Below, one piece after another: positions 14,187 to 64,000 of a stretch of DNA of 64,000 nt. Position 1 is the stretch's first letter, and each line of letters begins with the position of its first letter. The notes beneath the pieces are model-generated. The model was not told the origin of the DNA, searched no databases, and saw nothing but the letters and a program-made list of their open reading frames with translations. Source of the stretch: Halopenitus malekzadehii (GTDB taxonomy: Archaea > Halobacteriota > Halobacteria > Halobacteriales > Haloferacaceae); the NCBI RefSeq assembly GCF_900108505.1, contig NZ_FNWU01000001.1:698725-762724 (forward strand). Direction: 5' to 3'. Made by a program: the position numbers and the translations under genes.

Positions 14187-16898
14187 TCACTCCCCGACGC
14201 TATCGGGATCGTGAACCGCCGTGACGACGTCGACGGCGGCCCGGTTCGTCGCCACATCGTGCACGCGGATAATGTCCGCCCCGCGGTCGACGGCGACCGC
14301 CGTCCCGGCGACGGTCGCGGCACCTCGCTCGTCGGCATCGTACCCGAGTGCGCCGAACATCGACTTGTGGGAGTGGCCGACGAGGACCGGACAGCCGAGC
14401 GCGGCGAACTCCTCGATGCGGGACAACACCGCGAACTCCTCTGACGGTGACTTTGCGAACCCGAGTCCCGGATCGACGATCACGTTCCGGCGGTCGATCC
14501 CCGCGGCCTCCGCGCGCAGGATCCGTTCCTGGAGGGCGTCGAGAACGTCCTCGACGACGTCCTCGTACTCGATCTCCGTGTCGGGATCGACCGGAGCCTC
14601 GACGCTGTGCATCACGACCACCGGGCAGCCGGCCTCTGCGACGACCTCGCGCATCCGTGGGTCCTCGAGCCCGGTCACGTCGTTGATGACGTCCGCACCC
14701 GCCGCGATCGCGGCGTCCGCGACGTCGGGTTTGCGCGTGTCGATCGAGATCGCGACGTCGCCGTCGGCGATCGCCGGGAGATCCTGGAGCGCCTCCACGA
14801 CCGGTACCACGCGGTCGATTTCGTCGTCGACGGGAACCGGGTCGGCGCCCGGTCGCGTCGACTCGCCGCCGATGTCGATGATCCCGACACCGGCGTCGAT
14901 CATCCGCCGTGCGCCCGACACCGCGTCCGCGAGCGTCCCGTGCCGGCCGCCGTCGTGGAAGGAGTCCGGCGTGACGTTGAGGATCCCCATCACCGTCGGG
15001 CCGTCGGTCCAGGGCCAGGACGTCGAGGGGTGGGCCGATTCGCCGGCTGTCGTAGACGGATCGGCTGTGGTCGACGAACCAGGTGTGGTCGCCGGATCGA
15101 CGACGTCACCGCTTTCCGCACGATCGCGGATGGTCTCGGCCAGCCCGGGAAGACCGATTCCGCGATGGGTCAGTTGGTCGTCGGTGTGGGCACCCTGGTC
15201 GTCGGTGTGAATCCTCGGGTCGGCGGTGTGAATCCTCGGGTCGGCGGTGTGGGTGTCCGCATCGTCGATCACGTCGGCCAGCTCGTGGAGTCGGTCGACG
15301 GTCCCGCCGATCACGACCGCGATCGATTCGCCGCCCGTCCCGACGTCCGAGACCGCACACTCGAGCCCGCAGTGGAGTGCCGCCCGCCGCAACGCCTCGG
15401 CCTGGCTCGGATCGAGTCGCGTGCGAAGGACGCGATGGACCAGTCCGTCGCGAACGCGGTCGCGTTCGGGGTCGCCGACGTCGGCATCCGTGAGCAGGGT
15501 CTCGGCGTCCGCCGGCGTGTCAACCTGTGTGGGAACGACGCGTCGTGTGTATCTCGCGCGTCCCTCCGCGACCGCGAACAGCGACCCGGTCAGGAGCACA
15601 CAATCGTCGGCGTCCGCCCGGTCGATCGCCGCCTCGAGCGCGTCGGCGACCGCGGGCACGACCGTCGTCCCCTCGATCCCCGCGTTCCGAAACGCGGCCG
15701 CCAGCACGTCGGGGTCCGCCGCCCGTGGGTGGTCGGGTTGGCAGGTGTGGACCGACTCGGGCGTCGGCAACGCATCGATCGTTCCCTCGTGGTCCTTGTC
15801 GTGCATCGCGGCGAACGCGAGATGAAGGTCATCGTACTCGTACTCCGACAGCGTTCCCGCCAACGTTCGACAAGCGGCGGGATTGTGTGCCCCGTCGAGG
15901 ACGACGAGGGGATCGGTTCCGAGGACCTCGAAACGCCCGGGCCAACTCGCGGTTGCAAGCCCGTCGCGAACCGACTCGGCGGGAATCGGCGCGCTCGCCG
16001 ATGATGCGTTTCCTCCGTCGCTCCGGGCGACGGCTTCGTGTGCGATCGCGACCGCGATCGCCGCGTTGGTCGCCTGATACTCACCCACGAGCGGGAGTCG
16101 CGCGTCGTAGCTCCATCCCGAGCCGGTGACCTCGATCCGCGAGTCCGTCGGACTGCGTCGCCCCGAACGCGTTTCGATGCGGCCGTGGTACGTGGCCGTC
16201 ACGTCCGGGTTCGGATCCGGGTCGGATACGGTCGGTCCGTCGACCGTCCGGACGTCCTCGCCTGCGTCCGTGACGACTTCCCGGATGACCGACAACGCGC
16301 TGCCTCCGCAGGCCGTGATGACGGGCGTCCCCTCGTCGGCGATCCGCGCCTTCGTTCGAGCGATCTCCTCGACCGACTCGCCCAGTACCGCGGTGTGTTC
16401 GAGCGAGACGTTCGTGATCGCGGCCGTCACGGGATCGACCGCGCTCGTCGCGTCGTACTCGCCGCCCATTCCGACCTCGAGCACCGCGACGTCGACGTCG
16501 CGGCGGGCGAACTCCCAGATCCCCATCGCGGTGACGACCTCGAAGAAGGTGAGCGGCTCGCCGGCGGCGGCGCGGTCGACGAGCCAGGGGCGTGCCCGCT
16601 CGATGAAGGTCGCGATGGCGTCATCGCTCATTGGGTGCCCGTCGACCCGGATGCGCTCGGAGAGGTCATCGAGGTGGGGCGAGGTGTACAACCCCACCGT
16701 TCGGTCGGTCTGCCGAAGGATCGACTCGGTGATCCGGGCGGTGCTGCCCTTCCCGTTCGATCCGGCGATCTGGACGAACTCGAGCTCCGTCTCGGGGTTC
16801 CCGAGGTGATCGAGCAGCGCCTCGACGGCGTCGGTACCGGGGCGAACCGAGAAGCGGCGGAGGTCGAACAGGAAGTTCGCCGCCTCGTGGTAGTGCAT
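14187..16898 (-). CDS. folP: FolC-FolP fusion: folylpolyglutamate synthase and dihydropteroate synthase
   Basis: A 903-residue bifunctional folate protein. Residues 1 to about 440 are a FolC-type ligase with the P-loop IAGSNGKGSTARI near 45-57 and later LDGAHNPAACRTL, which adds glutamate to folates. A middle region of about 180 residues is poorly conserved and Asp/His-rich; part of it encodes a heptad repeat (HTADPRI, HTADPRI, HTDDQGA, HTDDQLT). From about residue 630 a dihydropteroate synthase follows: MGILNVTPDSFHDGG, then DIGGESTRPGADPV, SIDTRKPDVADAA and VGHSHKSMFGALG. Such FolC-FolP fusions are known from haloarchaea. The start is the ATG at 16898. Confidence 0.93.
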   Translation of the reverse strand: MHYHEAANFLFDLRRFSVRPGTDAVEALLDHLGNPETELEFVQIAGSNGKGSTARITESILRQTDRTVGLYTSPHLDDLSERIRVDGHPMSDDAIATFIERARPWLVDRAAAGEPLTFFEVVTAMGIWEFARRDVDVAVLEVGMGGEYDATSAVDPVTAAITNVSLEHTAVLGESVEEIARTKARIADEGTPVITACGGSALSVIREVVTDAGEDVRTVDGPTVSDPDPNPDVTATYHGRIETRSGRRSPTDSRIEVTGSGWSYDARLPLVGEYQATNAAIAVAIAHEAVARSDGGNASSASAPIPAESVRDGLATASWPGRFEVLGTDPLVVLDGAHNPAACRTLAGTLSEYEYDDLHLAFAAMHDKDHEGTIDALPTPESVHTCQPDHPRAADPDVLAAAFRNAGIEGTTVVPAVADALEAAIDRADADDCVLLTGSLFAVAEGRARYTRRVVPTQVDTPADAETLLTDADVGDPERDRVRDGLVHRVLRTRLDPSQAEALRRAALHCGLECAVSDVGTGGESIAVVIGGTVDRLHELADVIDDADTHTADPRIHTADPRIHTDDQGAHTDDQLTHRGIGLPGLAETIRDRAESGDVVDPATTPGSSTTADPSTTAGESAHPSTSWPWTDGPTVMGILNVTPDSFHDGGRHGTLADAVSGARRMIDAGVGIIDIGGESTRPGADPVPVDDEIDRVVPVVEALQDLPAIADGDVAISIDTRKPDVADAAIAAGADVINDVTGLEDPRMREVVAEAGCPVVVMHSVEAPVDPDTEIEYEDVVEDVLDALQERILRAEAAGIDRRNVIVDPGLGFAKSPSEEFAVLSRIEEFAALGCPVLVGHSHKSMFGALGYDADERGAATVAGTAVAVDRGADIIRVHDVATNRAAVDVVTAVHDPDSVGE
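15176..15259. repeat. 21-bp imperfect tandem repeat, 4 copies, in the FolC-FolP linker
   Basis: Four 21-bp units, each starting ggtcgtcggtgtg or ggtcggcggtgtg, encode a seven-residue motif beginning HTADPRI/HTDDQ in the linker between the folate domains. The second and third units are nearly identical; the outer ones are diverged, so the array is older than the perfect ones elsewhere in the window. Confidence 0.9.
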
Positions 16899-17074
16899 AT
16901 ACGATGACGCTCGGGCGGGGCATCGCTTGAGGGTGACGATGTCGACGATCGAGTCGGCCGCCAGTATCCGAAACACGAACCGATCGCCGGTACGCGAATC
17001 GATGCCGGTACACGAGCCGGCAGCCGCGGCCGCAGGAGGAACGTTGAAATCGACCCGTCACACAGGGATCCAAC

Positions 17075-53677: not shown

Positions 53678-54961
53678 CTAGGCGAGGAGCCTCAACGCGG
53701 AGTCGGATAGCACCGACACGCCGATCGAGAGACTCCGCTCGTCGATATCGAAGGCGGGGGTGTGGTGACCGCTCGGGTTGCTGGCACCGATGCCCAGATA
53801 CGTCGCCGTGCCGCCGTTCTCCGAGACGGCCTGCATCAGGTACGTGGCGTCCTCGCTCGCCGCCAGCGCGTCGCGGCGGACCAGCGAGAGCGAGTCGGGG
53901 TGGTCGGTCACTATCCCGCTCACCAGCTCCACGAGCTCCTCGTCACTGTCCTGCCGGATCGACTCGCCGGTGAGCTCGACCGTGGCCTCACACTCGTGCA
54001 TCTCCGCCGCGGTCTCGACGTACCGATCGACGGCATCGCGCATATACTCCATCAGCTCGGTGGATTCGCCGCGGACCTCGACCGACGCGGTGACGCGATC
54101 GGCGATGACGTTGGCGGCGTTGTCGGCGTGAATCCCGCCGACGTTCACGCGCGTGTTCCCCTCCCGATGGCGCGGGATCGCGTAGATGTTGTCCGCGGCG
54201 GCGATGAACGCCTGCACCGCGTTCCGGCCTTCGTTCGGCGCCAGCCCGGCGTGGGCGGACTCGCCCTCGAAGGTGACGTCCATCCGGGAGAGGGCCAGCG
54301 CCTCGTCGAGCCCGGCCACGACCGTTCCGACCGGCGTGTCCAGGCCGACGTGGGCGCCGAACAGGTGGTCGACGTCGTCGACGTGCGGACCGGCAGCCAT
54401 CGCCTTGCCGCCGCCCAACAGCTCCTCGGAGGGCTGGAAGAAGACCTTGAACGTCCCCGAGAACTCGCTGTCAAGCACCGTTCGGAGGACCCCCAGCCCG
54501 AACGTGATGTGGGCGTCGTGGCCGCAGGCGTGCATATACCCCTCGTTCGCCGACCGGAAACCCTCCGCGACGGGTCGATGGTCGTCGTCGGTCGACTCGG
54601 TGATCGGCAGCGCGTCGATGTCCACACGCAGGCCGACGGTCGGGCCCTCGCCGTTCTCGACGACGGCGACCGCGCCGGTGTGACCGCCCTCGAGCCGTTC
54701 GAGAACGTCCGTCCGGTCGGTCTCTGCGGCCGCCTGCTCGAACCACTCCGCGAGGACGTCGTCGTCGGGCACGCCCAGCCGCTCCTCGGAATCGAGGGCG
54801 TCAGGGCCGACGTGGATCTCGTCGACGCCCATCCGTTCCAGTTCCTCGACGATCCGCACCGTCGTTCGGAACTCACACCACCCGGGTTCGGGGTGGCGGT
54901 GGAACTCGCGTCGCAATTCCGTCAACTCCGCGTCCGATGGGCTCGTCGTTTGTGTCGTCAT
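53678..54961 (-). CDS. M20 amidohydrolase similar to AbgA (p-aminobenzoyl-glutamate hydrolase subunit)
   Basis: A 427-residue M20-type metal-dependent amidohydrolase. The start LTELRREFHRHPEPGWCEFR and the segment EERLGVPDDDVLAEWFEQAA resemble Escherichia coli AbgA (as I recall it) more than simple indole-acetyl-amino-acid hydrolases. Metal ligands appear in GLRVDIDALPITES, GYMHACGHDAHITFGL and the FQPSEELLGGGKAMAAG block. Later motifs are SAHAGLAPNEGRNAVQAF and ASEDATYLMQAVSENGG. In bacteria AbgA with AbgB splits the folate breakdown product p-aminobenzoyl-glutamate. No separate AbgB-like gene is here. Two membrane-protein genes upstream on the same strand suggest linked uptake. Confidence 0.82.
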   Translation of the reverse strand: MTTQTTSPSDAELTELRREFHRHPEPGWCEFRTTVRIVEELERMGVDEIHVGPDALDSEERLGVPDDDVLAEWFEQAAAETDRTDVLERLEGGHTGAVAVVENGEGPTVGLRVDIDALPITESTDDDHRPVAEGFRSANEGYMHACGHDAHITFGLGVLRTVLDSEFSGTFKVFFQPSEELLGGGKAMAAGPHVDDVDHLFGAHVGLDTPVGTVVAGLDEALALSRMDVTFEGESAHAGLAPNEGRNAVQAFIAAADNIYAIPRHREGNTRVNVGGIHADNAANVIADRVTASVEVRGESTELMEYMRDAVDRYVETAAEMHECEATVELTGESIRQDSDEELVELVSGIVTDHPDSLSLVRRDALAASEDATYLMQAVSENGGTATYLGIGASNPSGHHTPAFDIDERSLSIGVSVLSDSALRLLA

Positions 54962-55015
54962 GGGGTATCGGTCGTTGTCTATAGATTCGCTCGCAACCTC
55001 TTGATTCTTGCTGCT

Positions 55016-55759
55016 TCAGGAGTCGTCCGGGGCCTCGATCATCCCCTGTTCCCACATCCATCGGGCGATCAGGATCGTTCCGAAGACGGAAACGATGATC
55101 ACCACGTACAGCGGGTAGCCCGGGAGGAAGTTGAGCAGGCCCTGCTCCAACAGCAGCGTCATCGCCAGCGCGAGCACGAACCCGACGGCGGCGACCTTCG
55201 GGTAATCGCGTCCGAACTGCGCGAAGATCGCCCCGAACACCGCGGGAACGAGGTAGGATTCGAGCGCGTTCTGCCACAGCTCGGGCATCGCCTGGAACGC
55301 CGACACGAGCGCGAAGGCGCCGACGCCAAGCAACGTCGTGTTCACGACGATCGACGCCCCGATCGCGATCGTGGAGATGATGCTCCCCTGCGGCGTGCCG
55401 GTTTGGACGTCGGCGCTCTCCTGGGCCGCGGCGGCACAGGGTAGCCGGAGGTTCGAGATGTTCCCGGAGAGGAACGCCATATAGGTGCCCGGGATCCCCA
55501 GCACGGGGTAATACGAGATCGGCTCGACCACCCAGAAGATGCCGAACGTCGCCGCCACCGAGACGAACGCGCCGATGACCGCCTGTGACGGCGGCACGAT
55601 GTCGAAGACCGTAAGGAGGACGACTGCGGGCCCCAGCGACAGCAGCACTGCGAGGAGATTCGTCCGGCGCCCCCACGTGTTGATGTACGGAATGAAGCTG
55701 TCCTGGTAGACGTCCGAACCGGCGTCCGATCCGTCGGCTGCAGCTGATTGCTCGGACAT
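55016..55759 (-). CDS. Unknown membrane protein, partner of the DUF5058 protein
   Basis: A 247-residue membrane protein with about six hydrophobic segments. The N-terminal 40 residues are soluble and acidic. A notable motif lies near residues 85-112: YYPVLGIPGTYMAFLSGNIS, then NLRLPCAAAAQESADVQ, a polar-rich re-entrant-looking loop with the pair GNISN and a cysteine. Its start is one base after the stop of the DUF5058 gene and its stop is about 54 bases from the amidohydrolase start, so the three genes are one unit. I cannot name a family with certainty; it could be half of a two-component permease. Confidence 0.7.
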   Translation of the reverse strand: MSEQSAAADGSDAGSDVYQDSFIPYINTWGRRTNLLAVLLSLGPAVVLLTVFDIVPPSQAVIGAFVSVAATFGIFWVVEPISYYPVLGIPGTYMAFLSGNISNLRLPCAAAAQESADVQTGTPQGSIISTIAIGASIVVNTTLLGVGAFALVSAFQAMPELWQNALESYLVPAVFGAIFAQFGRDYPKVAAVGFVLALAMTLLLEQGLLNFLPGYPLYVVIIVSVFGTILIARWMWEQGMIEAPDDS

Positions 55760-55760
55760 C

Positions 55761-56510
55761 TTACCACCCTCCTCCCACGGTGACCTGCAGCGCGACGCCG
55801 ACGAAGAGGCCGACGATCATCGCCACGCCGAGTGCCCACTCGCGTATCCACTGGAGGTCACGCTCGTCGGCGATCCGCAACAACACCAACATCACGAGCC
55901 CCCCCACGGCGACGGACCCGGCCTCCGGGGTGCCCGTCGTGACCTCGCCGGTCAGGAAGTAGGCGAAGGCCCCGAGCATCGCGGCGGAGCTGATGATCGG
56001 GATGAGCTTCTCCTTGCCGTTCCCCAACTTCTGTCGCGCCTTCTCCATATGCGGCGTTCCGAGCGCCGAAACGAGCAGCCAGCCGGTGCCGCCCAGCGTC
56101 ATCGACCAGACCGCCGTGGCGTACGCGGTCTCGGTGATCCCCTCGTCACCCAGCCCGTAGCCGAACTGGCTGACGCCCAGCTCGGCCGCCGGAAGCTCGA
56201 ACGCGACCGACCCGATGACCGACAGGCGCATCCAGGCGACGGGACCGCCGACGGTCGCGATCAGCGCCAACATCCCGACCAGGACGGCGACGGCGGGGCC
56301 GATCGCTGAGATGAATCCGGTCTTGAAGCCGGAACGAAGTTGGTCATCGGAGAGTCCCATCTCCTTCCCGTCGTTCCAGGCCCGCCGGAGGAAGATCGCC
56401 GCCTGCAGCAACACGACCGAAACGACGGGCAGCGTGGAGAGCCACAACCATCGACTGTTAGCGATATCCATATATGCTGGAACGACTGTTAAGATTTCAT
56501 ACCATACCAT
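55761..56510 (-). CDS. DUF5058-like membrane protein
   Basis: A 249-residue membrane protein with about six or seven hydrophobic segments. The start region AYMDIANSRWLWLSTLPVVS, followed by VVLLQAAIFLRRAWNDGKEM and SGFKTGFISAIGPAVAVLVG, matches what I recall of the DUF5058 family, a membrane family often next to M20 peptidases. The transport role is a guess. A TATA box on the minus strand (56537-56544) lies inside the longest possible frame, so translation cannot start at 56549; the ATG at 56510 lies about 27 nt downstream and is chosen. Another ATG at 56471 is possible. Confidence 0.72.
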   Translation of the reverse strand: MVWYEILTVVPAYMDIANSRWLWLSTLPVVSVVLLQAAIFLRRAWNDGKEMGLSDDQLRSGFKTGFISAIGPAVAVLVGMLALIATVGGPVAWMRLSVIGSVAFELPAAELGVSQFGYGLGDEGITETAYATAVWSMTLGGTGWLLVSALGTPHMEKARQKLGNGKEKLIPIISSAAMLGAFAYFLTGEVTTGTPEAGSVAVGGLVMLVLLRIADERDLQWIREWALGVAMIVGLFVGVALQVTVGGGW

Positions 56511-56536: not shown

Positions 56537-56544
56537 TATATAAA
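56537..56544 (-). promoter_or_regulatory. TATA box of the DUF5058-amidohydrolase operon
   Basis: On the minus strand tttatata is 27-34 nt before the ATG at 56510 and decides the start codon of the first gene of the operon. Confidence 0.65.
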
Positions 56545-56758
56545 TCCATCGGTGGATGATTGAGACCCCATCGGTGGATGATCGAGGATCAATCGACGAT
56601 CGTTCGAGACGTGACTCCACGCGAGGCCGTGGCGGGCGGCGTCGACTGGATGACCGGATCGCCGGAATGGCCGGATCGGCGCTCAGTCAACGTCCGATCC
56701 GCTCGAACCCCCGAAACCACAGCGTTCAAGGACGTTACCCGCCAAACCGTATTCACAG

Positions 56759-57436
56759 GTGTACGAGTCGCTTCGAGCCGTCCTGGGTGATCCGTTCGCG
56801 ATCATGAACTCGATCGGCCTGATCGCGTTCGCCCTCGTCGGGGCCGCGAAGGCGATCCGCGAGGAGTTCGACCTGTTCGGGATCACCGTCGTCGGCCTCA
56901 CCACGGCGTTCGTCGGCGGCGCGACAAGGGACGTGATCGTCGGCCGGATCCCGCTTGCGCTCAGTTCGATGGGTGAGATCTCGCTCGGGATGGTCGGGGT
57001 GAGCCTCGCGGTGGGGTTACACCTCGTGTTGGACTCCCCGGACGACCACCCGATCACCGTCGTCTCGGACGCGGTCGGGTTGGCGGCGTTCACGACCACC
57101 GGCGCCATCGTGGCGACCGAAACCGGAGTGTCGAGCTTCGGCGTCGTCGCCATCGCCACGATCAACGCGGTCGGCGGCGGCGCGTTCGCCGACATCCTGC
57201 TCGACCGATCGCCGTTCATCCTGGTGACCGACTTCTACGCCAGCTGTGCCGTCCTCGGTGGGACGACCTACTGGCTCCTCGCCGTCGCGCTCGGCGCCGG
57301 CAACGTCGCTGCCGCGCTGTGTGCAGTGGTCACCGTCGGAACCCGACTGTATGCCGTCCGGTTCGGGTGGCATCTCCCGACCGCTCAGTCGGTCAATACG
57401 GCGGTCGACGATCGGTTTCGCAAGGGCTCGGAGTGA
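56759..57436 (+). CDS. UPF0126/TRIC-type cation channel family membrane protein
   Basis: A 225-residue protein with seven hydrophobic segments and two internal repeats of the UPF0126 type. The first repeat has AFALVGAAKAIREEFDLFG and FVGGATRDVIVGRIPLAL; the second has TTGAIVATETGVSSFGVVAI and AVGGGAFADILLDRSPFIL. Bacterial and archaeal relatives are trimeric K+-permeable channels related to animal TRIC. The frame starts with GTG at 56759; an ATG at 56804 also fits. Confidence 0.85.
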   Translation: MYESLRAVLGDPFAIMNSIGLIAFALVGAAKAIREEFDLFGITVVGLTTAFVGGATRDVIVGRIPLALSSMGEISLGMVGVSLAVGLHLVLDSPDDHPITVVSDAVGLAAFTTTGAIVATETGVSSFGVVAIATINAVGGGAFADILLDRSPFILVTDFYASCAVLGGTTYWLLAVALGAGNVAAALCAVVTVGTRLYAVRFGWHLPTAQSVNTAVDDRFRKGSE

Positions 57437-57620: not shown

Positions 57621-59066
57621 ATGAGAACCACTGACGCACACATCGACACGGACGTAGCGGTCATCGGCGCCGGACCCGGCGGATACGTCGCCGCGATCCG
57701 CGCCGCACAGCACGGTCTCGACGTGACGCTGATCGAGAAGGACGCCTACGGCGGGGTGTGTCTCAACGCGGGCTGTATCCCCTCGAAGGCGTACATCCAC
57801 GCGGCCAACCTCGCCCACGAGGCGACCCACGCGACCGATCTGGGTCTTCGGGGCGACGTCGAGGTCGATATGCCGACGCTGCAGGAGTGGACGGCCGGCG
57901 TCGTCTCCCGGATGAGCCGCTCCGTGGAGAAGCTCTGTAAGGCGAACGGCGTGACCCTCGTCGAGGGCACGGCGACGTTCGCCTCCGAATCCGAACTGGA
58001 CGTCGACGGCGCGGACGCGGCGCCCGAGACGATCGCCTTCGAGCACGCGATCGTGGCGACGGGGAGCCGGCCGATCGAGGTTCCGAACTTCCCGTTCGCC
58101 GACGATGCGGTGTGGTCTTCACGCGACGCGCTGGGTGCGGAGACGGTTCCCGACCGACTCGTCGTCGTCGGCGCCGGCTACATCGGGATGGAGCTCTCGA
58201 CGACCTTCGCCAAGCTCGGCGCCGACGTCACCGTGGTCGAGATGCTCGACGACATACTCCCGATCTACGACGACGACGTGAAACGCGTCGTCCGATCGCG
58301 GGCCGAGGAGCTGGGGATCGAGTTTTCGTTCGGCGAGGGCGCACGCGCTCTGCGCGAGACCGACGACGGGGACGGGGACGGAGACGGGGACGGGATCGAG
58401 ATCGTCACCGAGACCGAGGACGGCGAGGAGTCGGTCTATGGGGCCGACCGCGTGCTGGTCGCGGTCGGTCGCGAGCCGGTCACGAACACGCTGGAGCTCG
58501 AGGCTATCGGCCTCGAGCCCGACGAGAACGGCGTCCTCGAGACGGACGCGGAGGGCCGGACCGACCTCGACCACGTCTTCGCGGTCGGCGATGTCGCCGG
58601 CGATCCGATGCTCGCCCACGCCGCCAGCCACGAGGGCATCGTCGCCGCCGAAACCATCGCCGGCGAACCCGCTGGCAACGCCGACGGGCAGGTCGTCCCG
58701 AACGCGGTGTTCACCGACCCCGAGATCGCCACGGTCGGACGCACGGAGGCCGAGGCCGCCGAGGAGGGATTCGACCCCGTCGTCGGCGAGATGCCGTTCC
58801 GGGCGTCCGGGCGCGCGATGACCGCCGACGCGACGGACGGCTTCGTCCGCATCGTCGCCGACGCCGACGGCCACGCCGTGCTCGGCGGACAGATCGTGGG
58901 GCCCGACGCCTCCGAACTGATCGCGGAGATCGGCCTCGCGGTCGAGACGGGTGCGACGCTCGAGGACGTCGCGACGACCGTTCACACCCACCCCACGCTG
59001 GCGGAGGCCGTGATGGAGGCCGCCGAGAACGCGATGGGGCAGGCGATTCACACGCTCAACCGGTAG
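57621..59066 (+). CDS. lpdA: Dihydrolipoyl dehydrogenase
   Basis: A 481-residue FAD enzyme reoxidising dihydrolipoyl groups, the L protein of glycine cleavage and the E3 of 2-oxoacid complexes. The FAD motif is VAVIGAGPGGYVAAIRAAQH. The redox disulfide is YGGVCLNAGCIPSKAYIHA. The NAD motif is LVVVGAGYIGMELSTTFAKL. The C-terminal catalytic pair is in VHTHPTLAEAVMEAAENAM. A loop near residue 255 is extended by alternating Asp/Gly (DDGDGDGDGDG). The glycine cleavage genes are about 1.4-6 kb away on the other strand. Confidence 0.95.
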   Translation: MRTTDAHIDTDVAVIGAGPGGYVAAIRAAQHGLDVTLIEKDAYGGVCLNAGCIPSKAYIHAANLAHEATHATDLGLRGDVEVDMPTLQEWTAGVVSRMSRSVEKLCKANGVTLVEGTATFASESELDVDGADAAPETIAFEHAIVATGSRPIEVPNFPFADDAVWSSRDALGAETVPDRLVVVGAGYIGMELSTTFAKLGADVTVVEMLDDILPIYDDDVKRVVRSRAEELGIEFSFGEGARALRETDDGDGDGDGDGIEIVTETEDGEESVYGADRVLVAVGREPVTNTLELEAIGLEPDENGVLETDAEGRTDLDHVFAVGDVAGDPMLAHAASHEGIVAAETIAGEPAGNADGQVVPNAVFTDPEIATVGRTEAEAAEEGFDPVVGEMPFRASGRAMTADATDGFVRIVADADGHAVLGGQIVGPDASELIAEIGLAVETGATLEDVATTVHTHPTLAEAVMEAAENAMGQAIHTLNR

Positions 59067-59075
59067 GTCGGTTGG

Positions 59076-60311
59076 CTACTCGTCGGGTGCCCCGGTCGGA
59101 ACGACGCGCTTGATCGTGTATCCCGCCGCCTCGATGTCCCCGATGATCCGGTCGATCGCCGCGGTGCCGGGCGTCGTCATCCTGATGACGAGGTCGGCCT
59201 TGCCGACGGGGAGCCCCTCCTCGGACCGGTCGTGGCGAACGCTTCGCACGTTGGTGTCGTGATCGCCGATGATCTCGGCAACCTCCCCGAGTACCCCCGG
59301 TCGGTCGTCGATCCTGACGGTGAGCGTGACGAACAGTCGTCGATCGACGAGCGCCCGCGTGAGGATGTCCTGGAGGGTCGCGACGTCGATGTTCCCGCCG
59401 CCCAACACGGGGACGACGGTCTCGCCGCGGCAGTCGATCGTCCCGCTGAGAAGCGGCGCCACGGCCGCCGCGGCGGCCCCCTCGACGAGCTGTTTCGTCC
59501 GCTCGAGCAGGAACAGCGTCGCCTGTGCGATCTCGGTGTCGGTGACCGTCACGACCTCGTCGACGCGCTCGGAGATGATGTCGAAGGTGAGATCCGAGAC
59601 GCTCCCGGTCGCGATCCCGTCGGCGATCGTGTCTGGCGTCTCGTTCGCGACCGGATACCCCTTATCGAGGCTTTGAGGCACCGTCGCGGCCGACTCGGCC
59701 TGGACGCCGACGATCCGAACGGAGTCGTCGATGGCCGTCACCGCGGTCGCGATCCCGCCGATCAACCCCCCGCCGCCGATCGGGACGGTGAGGAGGCTCA
59801 TCTCGGGCACCTGCTCGAGCAGCTCCAGGCCGATCGTTCCCTGCCCGGCGACGACGTCGGGATCGTCGTAGGCGTGCACGAACTCGGTGTCCGACTCCGT
59901 GGCCGCCGAGCGCGCCGCCGCCATCGCCTCGGCGAAGGTGTCGCCCTCGAGCCGGACCGTCGCGCCGTATCCCTCGGTCGCGTCGACTTTCGCCTGCGGT
60001 GCCGTCTCGGGCATCACGATGAGCGACTCGAGACCGAGCTCGGTCGCCGCGTACGCAACGCCTTGGGCGTGGTTGCCCGCGCTCGCCGCGACGACTCGAT
60101 CGGCGTCGCCCCCGGCGATCCGGTGGATGGCGTTGAACGCGCCGCGTGGTTTGAACGATCCCGTCTTCTGGAGGTGCTCGGCCTTGAGCCGGACGTCCGC
60201 GCCGAGCCGGTCGCCGAGCGTCGTGCTCGTTTGCACCGGGGTCCGTCTGATGCCCGCTGCCTGGTCGATCCGCTCTTCGGCCGCCGTGATGTCCTCGATG
60301 GTGATGGTCAT
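59076..60311 (-). CDS. ilvA: Threonine ammonia-lyase with C-terminal ACT domain
   Basis: A 411-residue PLP enzyme deaminating threonine to 2-oxobutyrate for isoleucine synthesis or threonine breakdown. The PLP lysine is Lys54 in KTGSFKPRGAFNAI. The Gly-rich loop is LLTVPIGGGGLIGGIATAVT. The ACT domain from about residue 330 (FVTLTVRIDDRPGVLGEVAE) gives allosteric control. The real start is the ATG at 60311; the open frame above it runs through a repeat array and the end of gcvPB. It converges with lpdA with only nine bases between stops. Confidence 0.94.
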   Translation of the reverse strand: MTITIEDITAAEERIDQAAGIRRTPVQTSTTLGDRLGADVRLKAEHLQKTGSFKPRGAFNAIHRIAGGDADRVVAASAGNHAQGVAYAATELGLESLIVMPETAPQAKVDATEGYGATVRLEGDTFAEAMAAARSAATESDTEFVHAYDDPDVVAGQGTIGLELLEQVPEMSLLTVPIGGGGLIGGIATAVTAIDDSVRIVGVQAESAATVPQSLDKGYPVANETPDTIADGIATGSVSDLTFDIISERVDEVVTVTDTEIAQATLFLLERTKQLVEGAAAAAVAPLLSGTIDCRGETVVPVLGGGNIDVATLQDILTRALVDRRLFVTLTVRIDDRPGVLGEVAEIIGDHDTNVRSVRHDRSEEGLPVGKADLVIRMTTPGTAAIDRIIGDIEAAGYTIKRVVPTGAPDE

Positions 60312-60493: not shown

Positions 60494-61921
60494 TTACTCC
60501 GACAGCTGCTGCCAGCTCAGCGTCGGATCCCTCGCGGCCGTCGTCTGGTCGATCCGCTTTGCGGCCGTCGTTTGCGGGGCGTCCGCGATCGTGTCCGCGT
60601 CCTCGTCGCTGACCGCGTTGAACGCTGCAGCCAGCTGTTCCAGGGAGCGTTTGCTCTCGGCCTCGGTCGGCTCGGTCATCAGCGCCTCGTCGACGATCTC
60701 GGGCCACTTCGTCGTCGGGGGGTGGACCCCGTTGTCGAGCATCGCCTTGGCGAAGTCCGCGGCGTCCGTCTCGCCGGCGCTGGCCACGAACTCGTGGTGG
60801 AATGGCTCGAAGGGCACCTCCAGGTCGATCCGCTCGGCCAGGTAGTTCGCGTTCAACACCGCCTTCGCGCTGGTGTCGGTCAGGCCGTCGTCCCCGAGCC
60901 GGGAGATGTAGGCGTGCGCCTTGAGCAGGACGAGCCAGTTCCCCATCGACCCGTGCACCTTCCCGATCGATTCGTCGGGCTCGACGAGCGTGTACTCGTC
61001 GCCGTCCGTCCGAACCTGGGGTGTGGGCAGGAACTGCTCGAGCCCCTCCCGGACGCCGATCGGTCCGGCACCGGGACCCCCGCCGCCGTGGGGCGTCGCG
61101 AACGTCTTGTGGACGTTGAAGTGCATCACGTCGAAGCCCATGTCGCCGGGGCGGGCCCGTCCGAGGAGGGCGTTCAGGTTGGCGCCGTCGTAGTACAGCA
61201 GGCCGCCGGCGTCGTGAACGATGTCGGCGATCTCTTCGATGTCACGCTCGAACAGGCCGAGCGTGTTCGGGTTGGTCAACATCAACGCGGCGGTCGTCTC
61301 GCCGACCGCCTCCGTGAGGGCGTCGAGATCGACCCGACCGTCGTCGTCGGCCGGCAGCTCGACGATGTCGTAGCCCGCCATCGCGGCGCTGGCGAAGTTG
61401 GTTCCGTGGGCGCTTGCGGGCACGAGGATCTCCTCGCGCTCGTCGCCCTCGCCGTTGTGCTCGTGGTAGGCCTTCGCGATCAGGATCCCGGTCAGCTCGC
61501 CGGCCGCTCCCGCGGGCGGTTGCAGGGTGACGGCGTCCATCCCGCCGATCCGGGACAGGTAGTCCTGTAGCTCGTGGTAGACCTGCAGCGCACCCTGTGA
61601 CAGCTCCGGGTCGCGATCGGGGTGGATCGCCGCCGCCGTCGATCCCGCGATGTCCTCGGTGAACTTCGGGTTGTACTTCATCGTACACGACCCGAGCGGA
61701 TACGGTCCGTCGTCGATCCCGTAATTCATCTGCGAGAGCCGGGTGTAGTGACGCACCAGTTCCGGCTCCGACAGCGAGGGCAGTTCGATGCCGTCACGCG
61801 TCAGATCGTCCGGCAGATACGTGTCCTCCGGCTCGTGACGGGTGCTGTCCTTCTCGGACAGCAGCGGTTCGTGACCCTCGGAGGTCGTCTCGTCCCATTT
61901 CGTCTGTCGGTGTCGTTGCAT
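60494..61921 (-). CDS. gcvPB: Glycine dehydrogenase (decarboxylating) subunit 2
   Basis: A 475-residue PLP-binding half of the split P protein of glycine cleavage. It decarboxylates glycine and passes the aminomethyl group to GcvH. Conserved elements are NYGIDDGPYPLGSCTMKYNP, VTLQPPAGAAGELTGILIAK, ILVPASAHGTNFASAAMAGY and the PLP lysine Lys272 in HFNVHKTFATPHGGGGPG. The ATG shares one base with the gcvPA stop (TGATG), so the two halves are co-translated. Confidence 0.96.
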   Translation of the reverse strand: MQRHRQTKWDETTSEGHEPLLSEKDSTRHEPEDTYLPDDLTRDGIELPSLSEPELVRHYTRLSQMNYGIDDGPYPLGSCTMKYNPKFTEDIAGSTAAAIHPDRDPELSQGALQVYHELQDYLSRIGGMDAVTLQPPAGAAGELTGILIAKAYHEHNGEGDEREEILVPASAHGTNFASAAMAGYDIVELPADDDGRVDLDALTEAVGETTAALMLTNPNTLGLFERDIEEIADIVHDAGGLLYYDGANLNALLGRARPGDMGFDVMHFNVHKTFATPHGGGGPGAGPIGVREGLEQFLPTPQVRTDGDEYTLVEPDESIGKVHGSMGNWLVLLKAHAYISRLGDDGLTDTSAKAVLNANYLAERIDLEVPFEPFHHEFVASAGETDAADFAKAMLDNGVHPPTTKWPEIVDEALMTEPTEAESKRSLEQLAAAFNAVSDEDADTIADAPQTTAAKRIDQTTAARDPTLSWQQLSE

Positions 61922-63309
61922 CAGGCCATCACCTCCCGAACCTGCTCCAGGAAGTCGTCGACGTGCGCCTCGTTCGCCTCCGTGACACAGACCTGGATCG
62001 CGTCCTCGCCACGCTGATGGACCGCGAACCCTCGGTCGGCCAGCTCCGAGACGACTGCCTCGGCGTCGCCGTCGATCTCGGCGGTGAACTCCCGGAAGTG
62101 GTAGGCGTCGTTTGCCGGCGCCGACACACCCGGAACCTCGTCGAGTTCGGCGGCGAGCCGCGCGGGCAGGCGCGTACAGCGGTCCGCGAGGTCGGTGAGC
62201 CCCTCGGGACCGAGGTACGTCGCGTGGATCGCCGTCCGAAGCGCGACCCACGCCTGGTTGCTGCAGATGTTACTCGTCGCCCGTTCGCGGCGGATGTGCT
62301 GTTCGCGCGTCTGGAGCGTGAGCGTGTACGTCCGGTCTCCGTCGGCGTCCTCGCTTGCGCCCACGAGCCGCCCGGGCACCTGTCGGAGGAACTCCTCGCG
62401 GCAGGCGAACAGCCCGATGCCCATCCCGAAGGCGTTCGGCAGTCCCAGCACGCCGGCGTTTCCGACCACGACGTCGGCGCCGACCGTGGCCGGGTTTTCG
62501 AGCAGCGACAGCGCCAGGAGGTCCGAGCCGAGACAGAACAGCGTCTCCCGGTCCTCGAGGATCGACCCGACCGCCCCGAGGTGCTCCTCGATGACGCCGT
62601 CGGTGGTCGGGGTCTCGACGTACACCAGGAGGACGTCCTCGTCCAGAGCCGTCTCCAGCGCGTCGGGATCGACCATCCCGTTCTCGGTCGGGAACTCGCA
62701 GATCGACAGCCCGGCGCCGTCGGTGTAGTTCTCGAGGACCGCCCGTCGCTCCGCCCGCAGGTAGTCCGGCACGAGGATCGTCGATCCGTCCGCGGCTCGC
62801 ACCCGGTCCGCCAGGGTGGCGGCCTCGCCGAGGGCGGTCGCGGCGTCGTACATCGAGCAGTTCGCGACGTCCATCCCCGTCAGCTCGGTCACGAGTGACT
62901 GGAACTCGAACAGCACCTGGAGGAATCCCTGTGAGATCTCCGGCTGATACTGCGTGTAGGACGTGATGAACTCCGAGCGCAGCGAGAGGGAGTCGACGAC
63001 CGACGGCACGTAATGGGCGTAGTGGCCGCGACCGAGGAACTCGGTGACGTCGGCGTTCGCGTCCAACGTTCGTTCGAGGCGTCGTCGGACGCCCTGCTCG
63101 GACTCCCCCTCGATCCCGAATGACCCGTCGTAGCGGACTGGGTCCGGGATGTCGAACAGCTCCTCGACGTCGTCCACGTCGATGGCGGCCAGCATCTCCG
63201 CCACGTCGTCCGCGTCGTGCGGCGTGAACGGGCTCCCCGATTCGGCCTGCGCCAGGTCGTCTATCTGGGGAATCGGTTCACGCGTGGGGTGGGCTCGTTC
63301 CATCGTCAT
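61921..63309 (-). CDS. gcvPA: Glycine dehydrogenase (decarboxylating) subunit 1
   Basis: A 462-residue non-PLP half of the P protein, required for the heterotetramer with GcvPB. Family blocks are [80 protein letters not shown] and [20 protein letters not shown]. Length and order fit subunit 1. The ATG at 63309 overlaps the gcvH stop by four bases (ATGA). Confidence 0.96.
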
Positions 63310-63686
63310 ATCTGCTCCTCGTACTCCTCGGCCGTGAGGAGGTGGTCGACGTCGTCATCGGTGCGTATCTCGACGAGCCAGCCGTCGCCGTGTGGGTCCT
63401 CGTTGATGAGCTCCGGCTGGTCCGTGATCGCTTCGTTGACCGCCTCGATCGTTCCCGAGACCGGGAGGTAGATGTCCGAGACGGCCTTGATGCTCTCGAC
63501 GACGGCGAACTGGTCGCCCCGGTCGAACGTCTCACCCTCCCGCGGCAGCTCCGCGAAGACGATATCGCCGAGTTCGTCCTGCGCGAAGTCGCTGATGCCG
63601 ATCCGGAGGACGCCCTCCGCGTCGGTCTCGTGTACCCATTCGTGCGATTCTGCGTATCGCCGGTCGGTTGGTATCTCGTGGTCCAT
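63306..63686 (-). CDS. gcvH: Glycine cleavage system H protein
   Basis: A 126-residue lipoyl carrier shuttling the aminomethyl group between P, T and L proteins. The lipoylated lysine is Lys67 in [19 protein letters not shown]. Flanking blocks are [39 protein letters not shown] and [13 protein letters not shown]. The frame extends 30 codons upstream through a Thr/Pro/Lys repeat that overlaps the gcvT end; the ATG at 63686 is the family start. Confidence 0.97.
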
Positions 63687-63690
63687 GGCG

Positions 63691-64000
63691 TTATTCGTCG
63701 GTTTCGTGGGTTGCGTCGTCGGATTCGTCGGCGTCGTCGGTTTCGTCGGCGTCGTCGGTTTCGTCGGTGTCGACAAGGGAGTCGAGGAACCGCTGGCCGA
63801 CGATCGTCGCCGGCACCTGCCGCCCGCGTACGTCGACCGCGATCGATGTCCCGGTCGAGGCGTAGTCGGCGTCGACGTATCCGAGCCCGATCGGCTCCGA
63901 GAGCGTGGGACTCATCGTCCCGCTCGTGACGTGGCCGATCCGTTCGTCGTCGTGGTGGATCCCGTACCCGCTTCGTGGCACTCCGCGTCCGTTCAGGTGG
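63691..64000 (-). CDS. gcvT: Aminomethyltransferase GcvT, C-terminal part, cut by the right window edge
   Basis: The last 102 residues of the T protein, which transfers the one-carbon unit from GcvH to tetrahydrofolate. The readable part runs from [20 protein letters not shown] through [20 protein letters not shown] to the barrel end [19 protein letters not shown]. The true start lies outside the window, since no in-frame stop occurs before the edge. The C-terminal 25 residues are an Asp/Glu/Thr tail from an 18-bp tandem repeat. gcvH begins four bases after its stop. Confidence 0.93.
63718..63771. repeat. 18-bp tandem repeat, 3 copies, in the gcvT 3' end
   Basis: Units gtcggtttcgtcggcgtc with small changes encode DETDDA-type repeats at the extreme C-terminus of GcvT. 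Confidence 0.93.

Follow-up and report, generated by a model that had tools for sequence, protein, structure and literature searches.

The operon examined here, from Halopenitus malekzadehii, encodes two membrane proteins and an amidohydrolase of the M20 family, and it raises the question of which compound the three proteins handle together. It lies in a 64-kb stretch of DNA that was analysed over its whole length and is called the window below. A sequence-only reading of the window had proposed a system for the salvage of folate fragments, in which the two membrane proteins replace AbgT as a two-subunit permease and an AbgA-like enzyme works without AbgB. We followed up this proposal with profile searches, structure models, a phylogeny, and a survey of gene neighbourhoods in haloarchaea and Bacillota.

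Operon and promoter region

The genes for a DUF5058 protein, a second membrane protein (PART), and the M20 enzyme form a compact operon on the minus strand with spacers of 1 and 54 bases. Three same-strand genes with such spacers (the second given as about 54) and a TATA box had been described before, and all coordinates and the box were found again in the DNA. The DUF5058 gene (55,761 to 56,510) encodes 249 amino acids, the proposed permease subunit 1. Its product, which was aligned with 25 archaeal and Bacillota homologues, matches PF16481 with an E value of 9e-77 and 258 bits against a gathering score of 28.2, and is therefore a member of that family; the DUF5058 protein of H. persicus is 94% identical. 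A longer reading frame from an ATG at 56,549 is possible, and the relatives begin at the ATG at 56,510. PART, the proposed permease subunit 2, is a protein of 247 amino acids (55,016 to 55,759, minus strand) that is recognizable from its invariant columns and from its DUF5058 neighbour at all of the intact loci examined. The M20 gene (53,678 to 54,961, minus strand) encodes 427 amino acids.

The TATA box, TTTATATA (56,537 to 56,544, minus strand), is located 27 to 34 bases upstream of the DUF5058 ATG at 56,510. Most of the relatives' genes shown are likewise preceded by a TATA-like box in that region, and the box is clearest in near relatives. Because of this distance and this recurrence, the transcript of the operon is probably leaderless or has a very short leader. 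A 15-bp direct repeat, CCATCGGTGGATGAT, with a period of 22 bp (copy 1 at 56,546 to 56,560, copy 2 at 56,568 to 56,582) directly precedes the TATA box and is a candidate regulator site; the 64-kb window contains these two copies and no third. An ACCGAT-like core precedes the TATA box in several relatives too.

The M20 enzyme is of the AbgA type

The M20 protein matches TIGR01891 with 260.7 bits, and its best solved structure is that of Klebsiella AbgA (3io1, 300 bits), whereas all others score 116 bits or less. It aligns with E. coli AbgA at 37% over 418 residues (259 bits), compared with a partial match of 36 bits to AbgB. The motifs WCEFR, ERLGVPDDD, and HACGHDAH, on which the AbgA assignment had first been based, are all present. 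The alignment with 3io1 shares the metal-site motifs HACGHD, PSEE, HVG, and GHH as well as the W.EFR and RLG.PD motifs of the AbgA-specific N-terminal segment. M20D enzymes that hydrolyze hippurate or N-acyl amino acids (YxeP, CpsA, ILL2, and N-alpha-acyl-glutamine aminoacylase) belong to the same TIGR01891 superfamily and have the same metal-site motifs, but they reach only 92 to 116 bits and lack the AbgA-type RLG.PD segment (residues ~50 to 92).

In the phylogenetic tree, whose deeper part is limited by long branches, the DUF5058-linked haloarchaeal M20 enzymes form one clade (support 100/99), which also includes the orthologues L187 and L188, both unlinked and both from small genomes, and is separate from both the AbgA-like paralogues and AbgB. 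Among the matches listed, every M20 copy with at least 64% identity adjoins DUF5058. The earlier assignment to the AbgA type is therefore upheld by the scores, the structure match, and the tree. The genome encodes three TIGR01891 proteins above the cut-off, all of them AbgA-like, so that no AbgB-type enzyme was found among them, and the search for AbgT (PF03806) in this genome was empty as well; the expectation that neither abgB nor abgT would be found elsewhere in the genome was thus confirmed.

These comparisons support AbgA-type ancestry, and hydrolysis of p-aminobenzoyl-glutamate is only a predicted label. Ancestry does not fix the substrate, because some AbgA-like paralogues without the membrane pair sit with genes for a BCCT transporter, an aminotransferase, and RidA. 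Nearly all Halobacteria encode an AbgA-like enzyme (282 of 292 genomes), compared with 17 of 292 for DUF5058. One paralogue cluster, an AbgA-like amidohydrolase with a BCCT transporter, one or more class III aminotransferases, and often a RidA-like protein, is conserved in haloarchaea (L079, L181, L183, L184, and L186).

The membrane pair

While profile searches placed the DUF5058 protein in PF16481 and the M20 enzyme in TIGR01891, PART had no match in Pfam, NCBIfam, or the PDB. The sequence-only reading had pointed to a conserved-looking polar loop in PART. This loop, EP...G..GxY...LSGN..N...P, turned out to be the most conserved stretch of the family: 11 residues (E79, P80, G88, G91, Y93, L97, S98, G99, N100, N103, and P107) do not vary among the 27 sequences compared from archaea and Bacillota. 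About six membrane helices and short half-helices are predicted in each of the two proteins. AlphaFold models of the single chains, built from alignments of 25 to 27 rows, are weak (pLDDT of 70 and 60); both contain two long helices, two short half-helices (~residues 89 to 115), and then longer helices. The half-helices, modelled at low confidence, would fit a re-entrant hairpin.

A local motif at corresponding positions is similar in DUF5058 and PART, with hhalign probabilities of 5 to 16% compared with 0.2% for reversed controls, although shuffles that keep blocks of 12 to 25 columns score equally high. Together with the matching helix order of the two models, the motif is suggestive of homology between the two proteins.

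Neither protein matched a transporter in sequence or in fold, and a fold search of the PDB with both models gave no match. An origin of the pair from AbgT was rejected, since neither protein has a Pfam match to PF03806 and hhalign of each family to AbgT gave ~0.1%. An origin of PART from Gate-domain proteins (YjiG/YjiH and SpmA/SpmB; PF07670) was rejected as well: an LGIPG-like stretch is alike by eye, but for neither protein were profile scores better than those of reversed or column-shuffled controls. The E. coli yjiH-yjiG-iadA operon resembles the trio in that two small membrane proteins are encoded with a small-peptide hydrolase (isoaspartyl dipeptidase), but YjiG and YjiH are Gate-domain proteins, which the PART and DUF5058 profiles match only at the level of these controls. 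No paper in the literature collection searched mentions DUF5058, and none deals with M20/permease/N-acyl operons or with Halopenitus and hippurate.

Recurrence of the pair and its partner hydrolases

The expected recurrent link of the three families was recovered in the neighbour survey. PART adjoins DUF5058 in 45 of 45 Bacillota loci and in every intact haloarchaeal locus that was examined. In most of them the two frames overlap or lie a few bases apart (genes in high-GC loci were called with a codon-scored caller). An M20 enzyme is encoded within 2.5 kb of the pair in 36 of the 45 Bacillota loci, and a C45, M42, Amidohydro_1, or Amidohydro_3 hydrolase is adjacent in four further loci. Of the 44 Bacillota loci that could be assessed, 40 thus encode an amide or peptide hydrolase beside the pair, in a set where one of the five remaining loci ends at a contig end and one genome (G299/L061) is counted twice. 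The M20 partners in Bacillota belong to CPS1-type, PepT-like, CpsA-like, and AbgB-type groups. The pairs of Clostridiales and Natronococcus jeotgali are flanked by AbgB-type enzymes (38 to 40% to E. coli AbgB), and in N. jeotgali such an enzyme (L036, 11,119 to 12,522) replaces the AbgA type at a pair locus linked to glycine cleavage genes. The M20 gene is divergent yet adjacent to the pair at three haloarchaeal loci (L023, L033, and L037), which have no glycine cleavage genes and encode a carbamoylase-family enzyme alongside. The partner hydrolases have in common that they cut small peptides or amino-acid conjugates at an amide bond. This suggests that the pair has a shared uptake function and that the partner enzyme sets the substrate.

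The second N. jeotgali copy (L037, 9,586 to 11,764) has a PART gene split by ~1.4 kb, which suggests an insertion; the flanking genes encode a carbamoylase and, in divergent orientation, an AbgA-type enzyme. Decayed remnants of DUF5058 or of the trio are found in Halorubrum saccharovorum and other haloarchaea (L038 to L041), and the module has therefore been lost repeatedly. In two Bacillota loci (L129 and L131), a PGA_cap gene (capsule synthesis-type metallophosphatase) follows PART directly.

The glycine catabolism neighbourhood

Glycine cleavage system (GCS) genes begin ~1 kb from the operon, and family models bear out the earlier observation that the window encodes these enzymes. A divergent neighbour on the plus strand (56,759 to 57,436) is a homologue of the UPF0126 "glycine transporter" family (PF03458, 2.7e-33). 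It is followed by the genes for dihydrolipoyl dehydrogenase, the GCS L protein (57,621 to 59,066, plus strand; TIGR01350, 517 bits), and threonine ammonia-lyase (59,076 to 60,311, minus strand; TIGR01127, 425 bits). Also on the minus strand are the glycine dehydrogenase subunits GcvPB (60,494 to 61,921; NF003346, 669 bits) and GcvPA (61,921 to 63,309; NF001696, 497 bits), GcvH (63,306 to 63,686; NF002270, 160 bits), and the C-terminal part of GcvT (63,691 to 64,000), which runs off the window and is assigned from gene order and not from a family model, since its homologue immediately precedes gcvH in L027 and further loci.

Of the 23 distinct intact haloarchaeal loci, 16, among them the one in this window, have GCS genes within ~9 kb of the trio (16 of the 20 loci of the main enzyme clade), compared with none of 10 loci of AbgA-like paralogues; the seven other intact haloarchaeal loci have none. 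A naive binomial estimate (~0.8% chance per genome) gives ~1e-30, a figure that treats the loci as independent although the 16 linked ones are related by descent. Because the loci share ancestry, we place weight on the varied gene orders and orientations, which are found across several haloarchaeal families, and not on this figure. Frequent companions of the trio and GCS genes are the UPF0126 homologue, threonine ammonia-lyase, SHMT, LipA, and RidA. The survey found the PF03458 homologue close to the trio at 11 loci. In 11 bacteria, according to a review (PMC12173739), members of the UPF0126 family were important for the use of glycine. As GCS and SHMT are also folate-dependent, this neighbourhood is compatible with a folate role too.

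Proposed function

We suggest, with a probability of about 0.5, that DUF5058 and PART form a two-subunit secondary permease for N-acyl amino acids or short peptides that works with the adjoining cytoplasmic hydrolase, and that glycine is the likely product in haloarchaea. The heterodimer would import an N-acyl amino acid or short peptide, which the amide hydrolase encoded next door, the AbgA-type M20 enzyme in haloarchaea, would cut in the cytoplasm. The amino acid released in haloarchaea would most likely be glycine, possibly serine or threonine, and could be consumed by the enzymes of the adjoining GCS, SHMT, and threonine ammonia-lyase genes. The survey would thus give the pair, one member of which (PART) has no Pfam or NCBIfam entry, a concrete job in uptake for small amide hydrolases. 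It also ties an AbgA-type enzyme of archaea to the breakdown of glycine, a warning that the p-aminobenzoyl-glutamate label should not be transferred to archaea. A bolder version is tentative and, in our estimate, probably too strong: the pair would be a new heteromeric secondary transporter family of two distantly related subunits of ~250 amino acids, each with a re-entrant helical hairpin, dedicated to N-acyl amino acids across Bacillota and haloarchaea, and with the AbgA-type hydrolase and GCS it would make up a haloarchaeal acylglycine catabolic island.

The closest known parallel is E. coli abgABT, where an AbgA-type M20 hydrolase is likewise encoded with a membrane transporter and import followed by amide hydrolysis serves as the model. 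However, the trio has two unrelated proteins of ~250 amino acids in place of AbgT, lacks AbgB, and is embedded in glycine cleavage genes instead of lying beside abgR. Of the earlier proposal, the two-subunit permease is kept as the natural reading of the recurrent link, whereas the folate-fragment substrate is not supported. That substrate would require the pair to import p-aminobenzoyl-glutamate and the AbgA-type enzyme alone to cut it to p-aminobenzoate and glutamate, which we consider improbable. The type of the enzyme, the AbgB-type enzymes beside the pair in N. jeotgali and Clostridiales, the lack of AbgT and AbgB in this genome, and the folate-dependent enzymes among the GCS, SHMT, and LipA neighbours all speak for it, but in E. 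coli the hydrolase is built as a heterotetramer of AbgA and AbgB (PMC5082436) and hydrolases unrelated to AbgA/B also accompany the pair. A full AbgT is present as well in seven Bacillota genomes (Peptoniphilus-type and Facklamia), that is, in most of the DUF5058-bearing Peptoniphilaceae and Facklamia genomes searched; the 292 Halobacteria genomes contain no clear AbgT homologue, only short or weak partial matches. The FolC-FolP fusion (Mur ligase and pterin-binding domains; 14,187 to 16,976) is indeed in the window, as had been noted, but lies ~37 kb from the operon and is absent from the recurrent neighbours found. Folate salvage is therefore less likely than a module for N-acyl amino acids, because AbgA-type enzymes are general in haloarchaea, unrelated hydrolases are found with the pair, and the neighbours that persist (threonine ammonia-lyase, RidA, and UPF0126) belong to amino-acid catabolism and not to folate synthesis.

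The glycine role itself is open to a plainer account, which we regard as doubtful: the module may scavenge short peptides and N-acyl amino acids generally, the GCS linkage being an inherited haloarchaeal gene order. The diversity of linked hydrolases in Bacillota, where a single locus (L064) has GCS genes near the pair, favours this account, but the linkage recurs across haloarchaeal families in differing orders and orientations, and UPF0126 stays near the trio even at loci without GCS genes (L032 and L048). It is improbable that the pair exports the product, an amino acid or an acyl fragment, or that it anchors the hydrolase in the membrane or acts as its sensor. The direction of transport is not readable from the sequence, and many Bacillota partners are CPS1-type M20 enzymes with an N-terminal hydrophobic segment; the haloarchaeal M20 translation, however, has no such segment, and the helices, half-helices, and invariant polar stretch are more in keeping with a permease than with an anchor.

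In the preferred reading, a permease and hydrolase for N-acyl amino acids, the acyl part could be aromatic, as in hippurate- or phenylacetylglycine-like compounds. Among the loci without GCS genes, the trio is near a benzoate-CoA-ligase-family gene in L043 (TIGR02262, above the cut-off) and near PaaF-, PaaH-, and PaaZ-like genes in L032. Hippurate itself is doubtful as the haloarchaeal substrate: for Halomicroarcula rubra F13, which has the trio inside a GCS cluster (L047), hippurate, benzoate, and glycine reportedly do not serve as sole carbon sources (PMC8600319). IclR-family regulator genes lie near the trio at L027 (71 to 823), L036 (8,371 to 9,081), L033 (14,369 to 15,133), and L048 (9,026 to 9,745). 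The last of these loci, from Halobellus rarus, also carries creatininase-family, Amidohydro_3, and UPF0126 genes, which hints at other glycine-yielding compounds.
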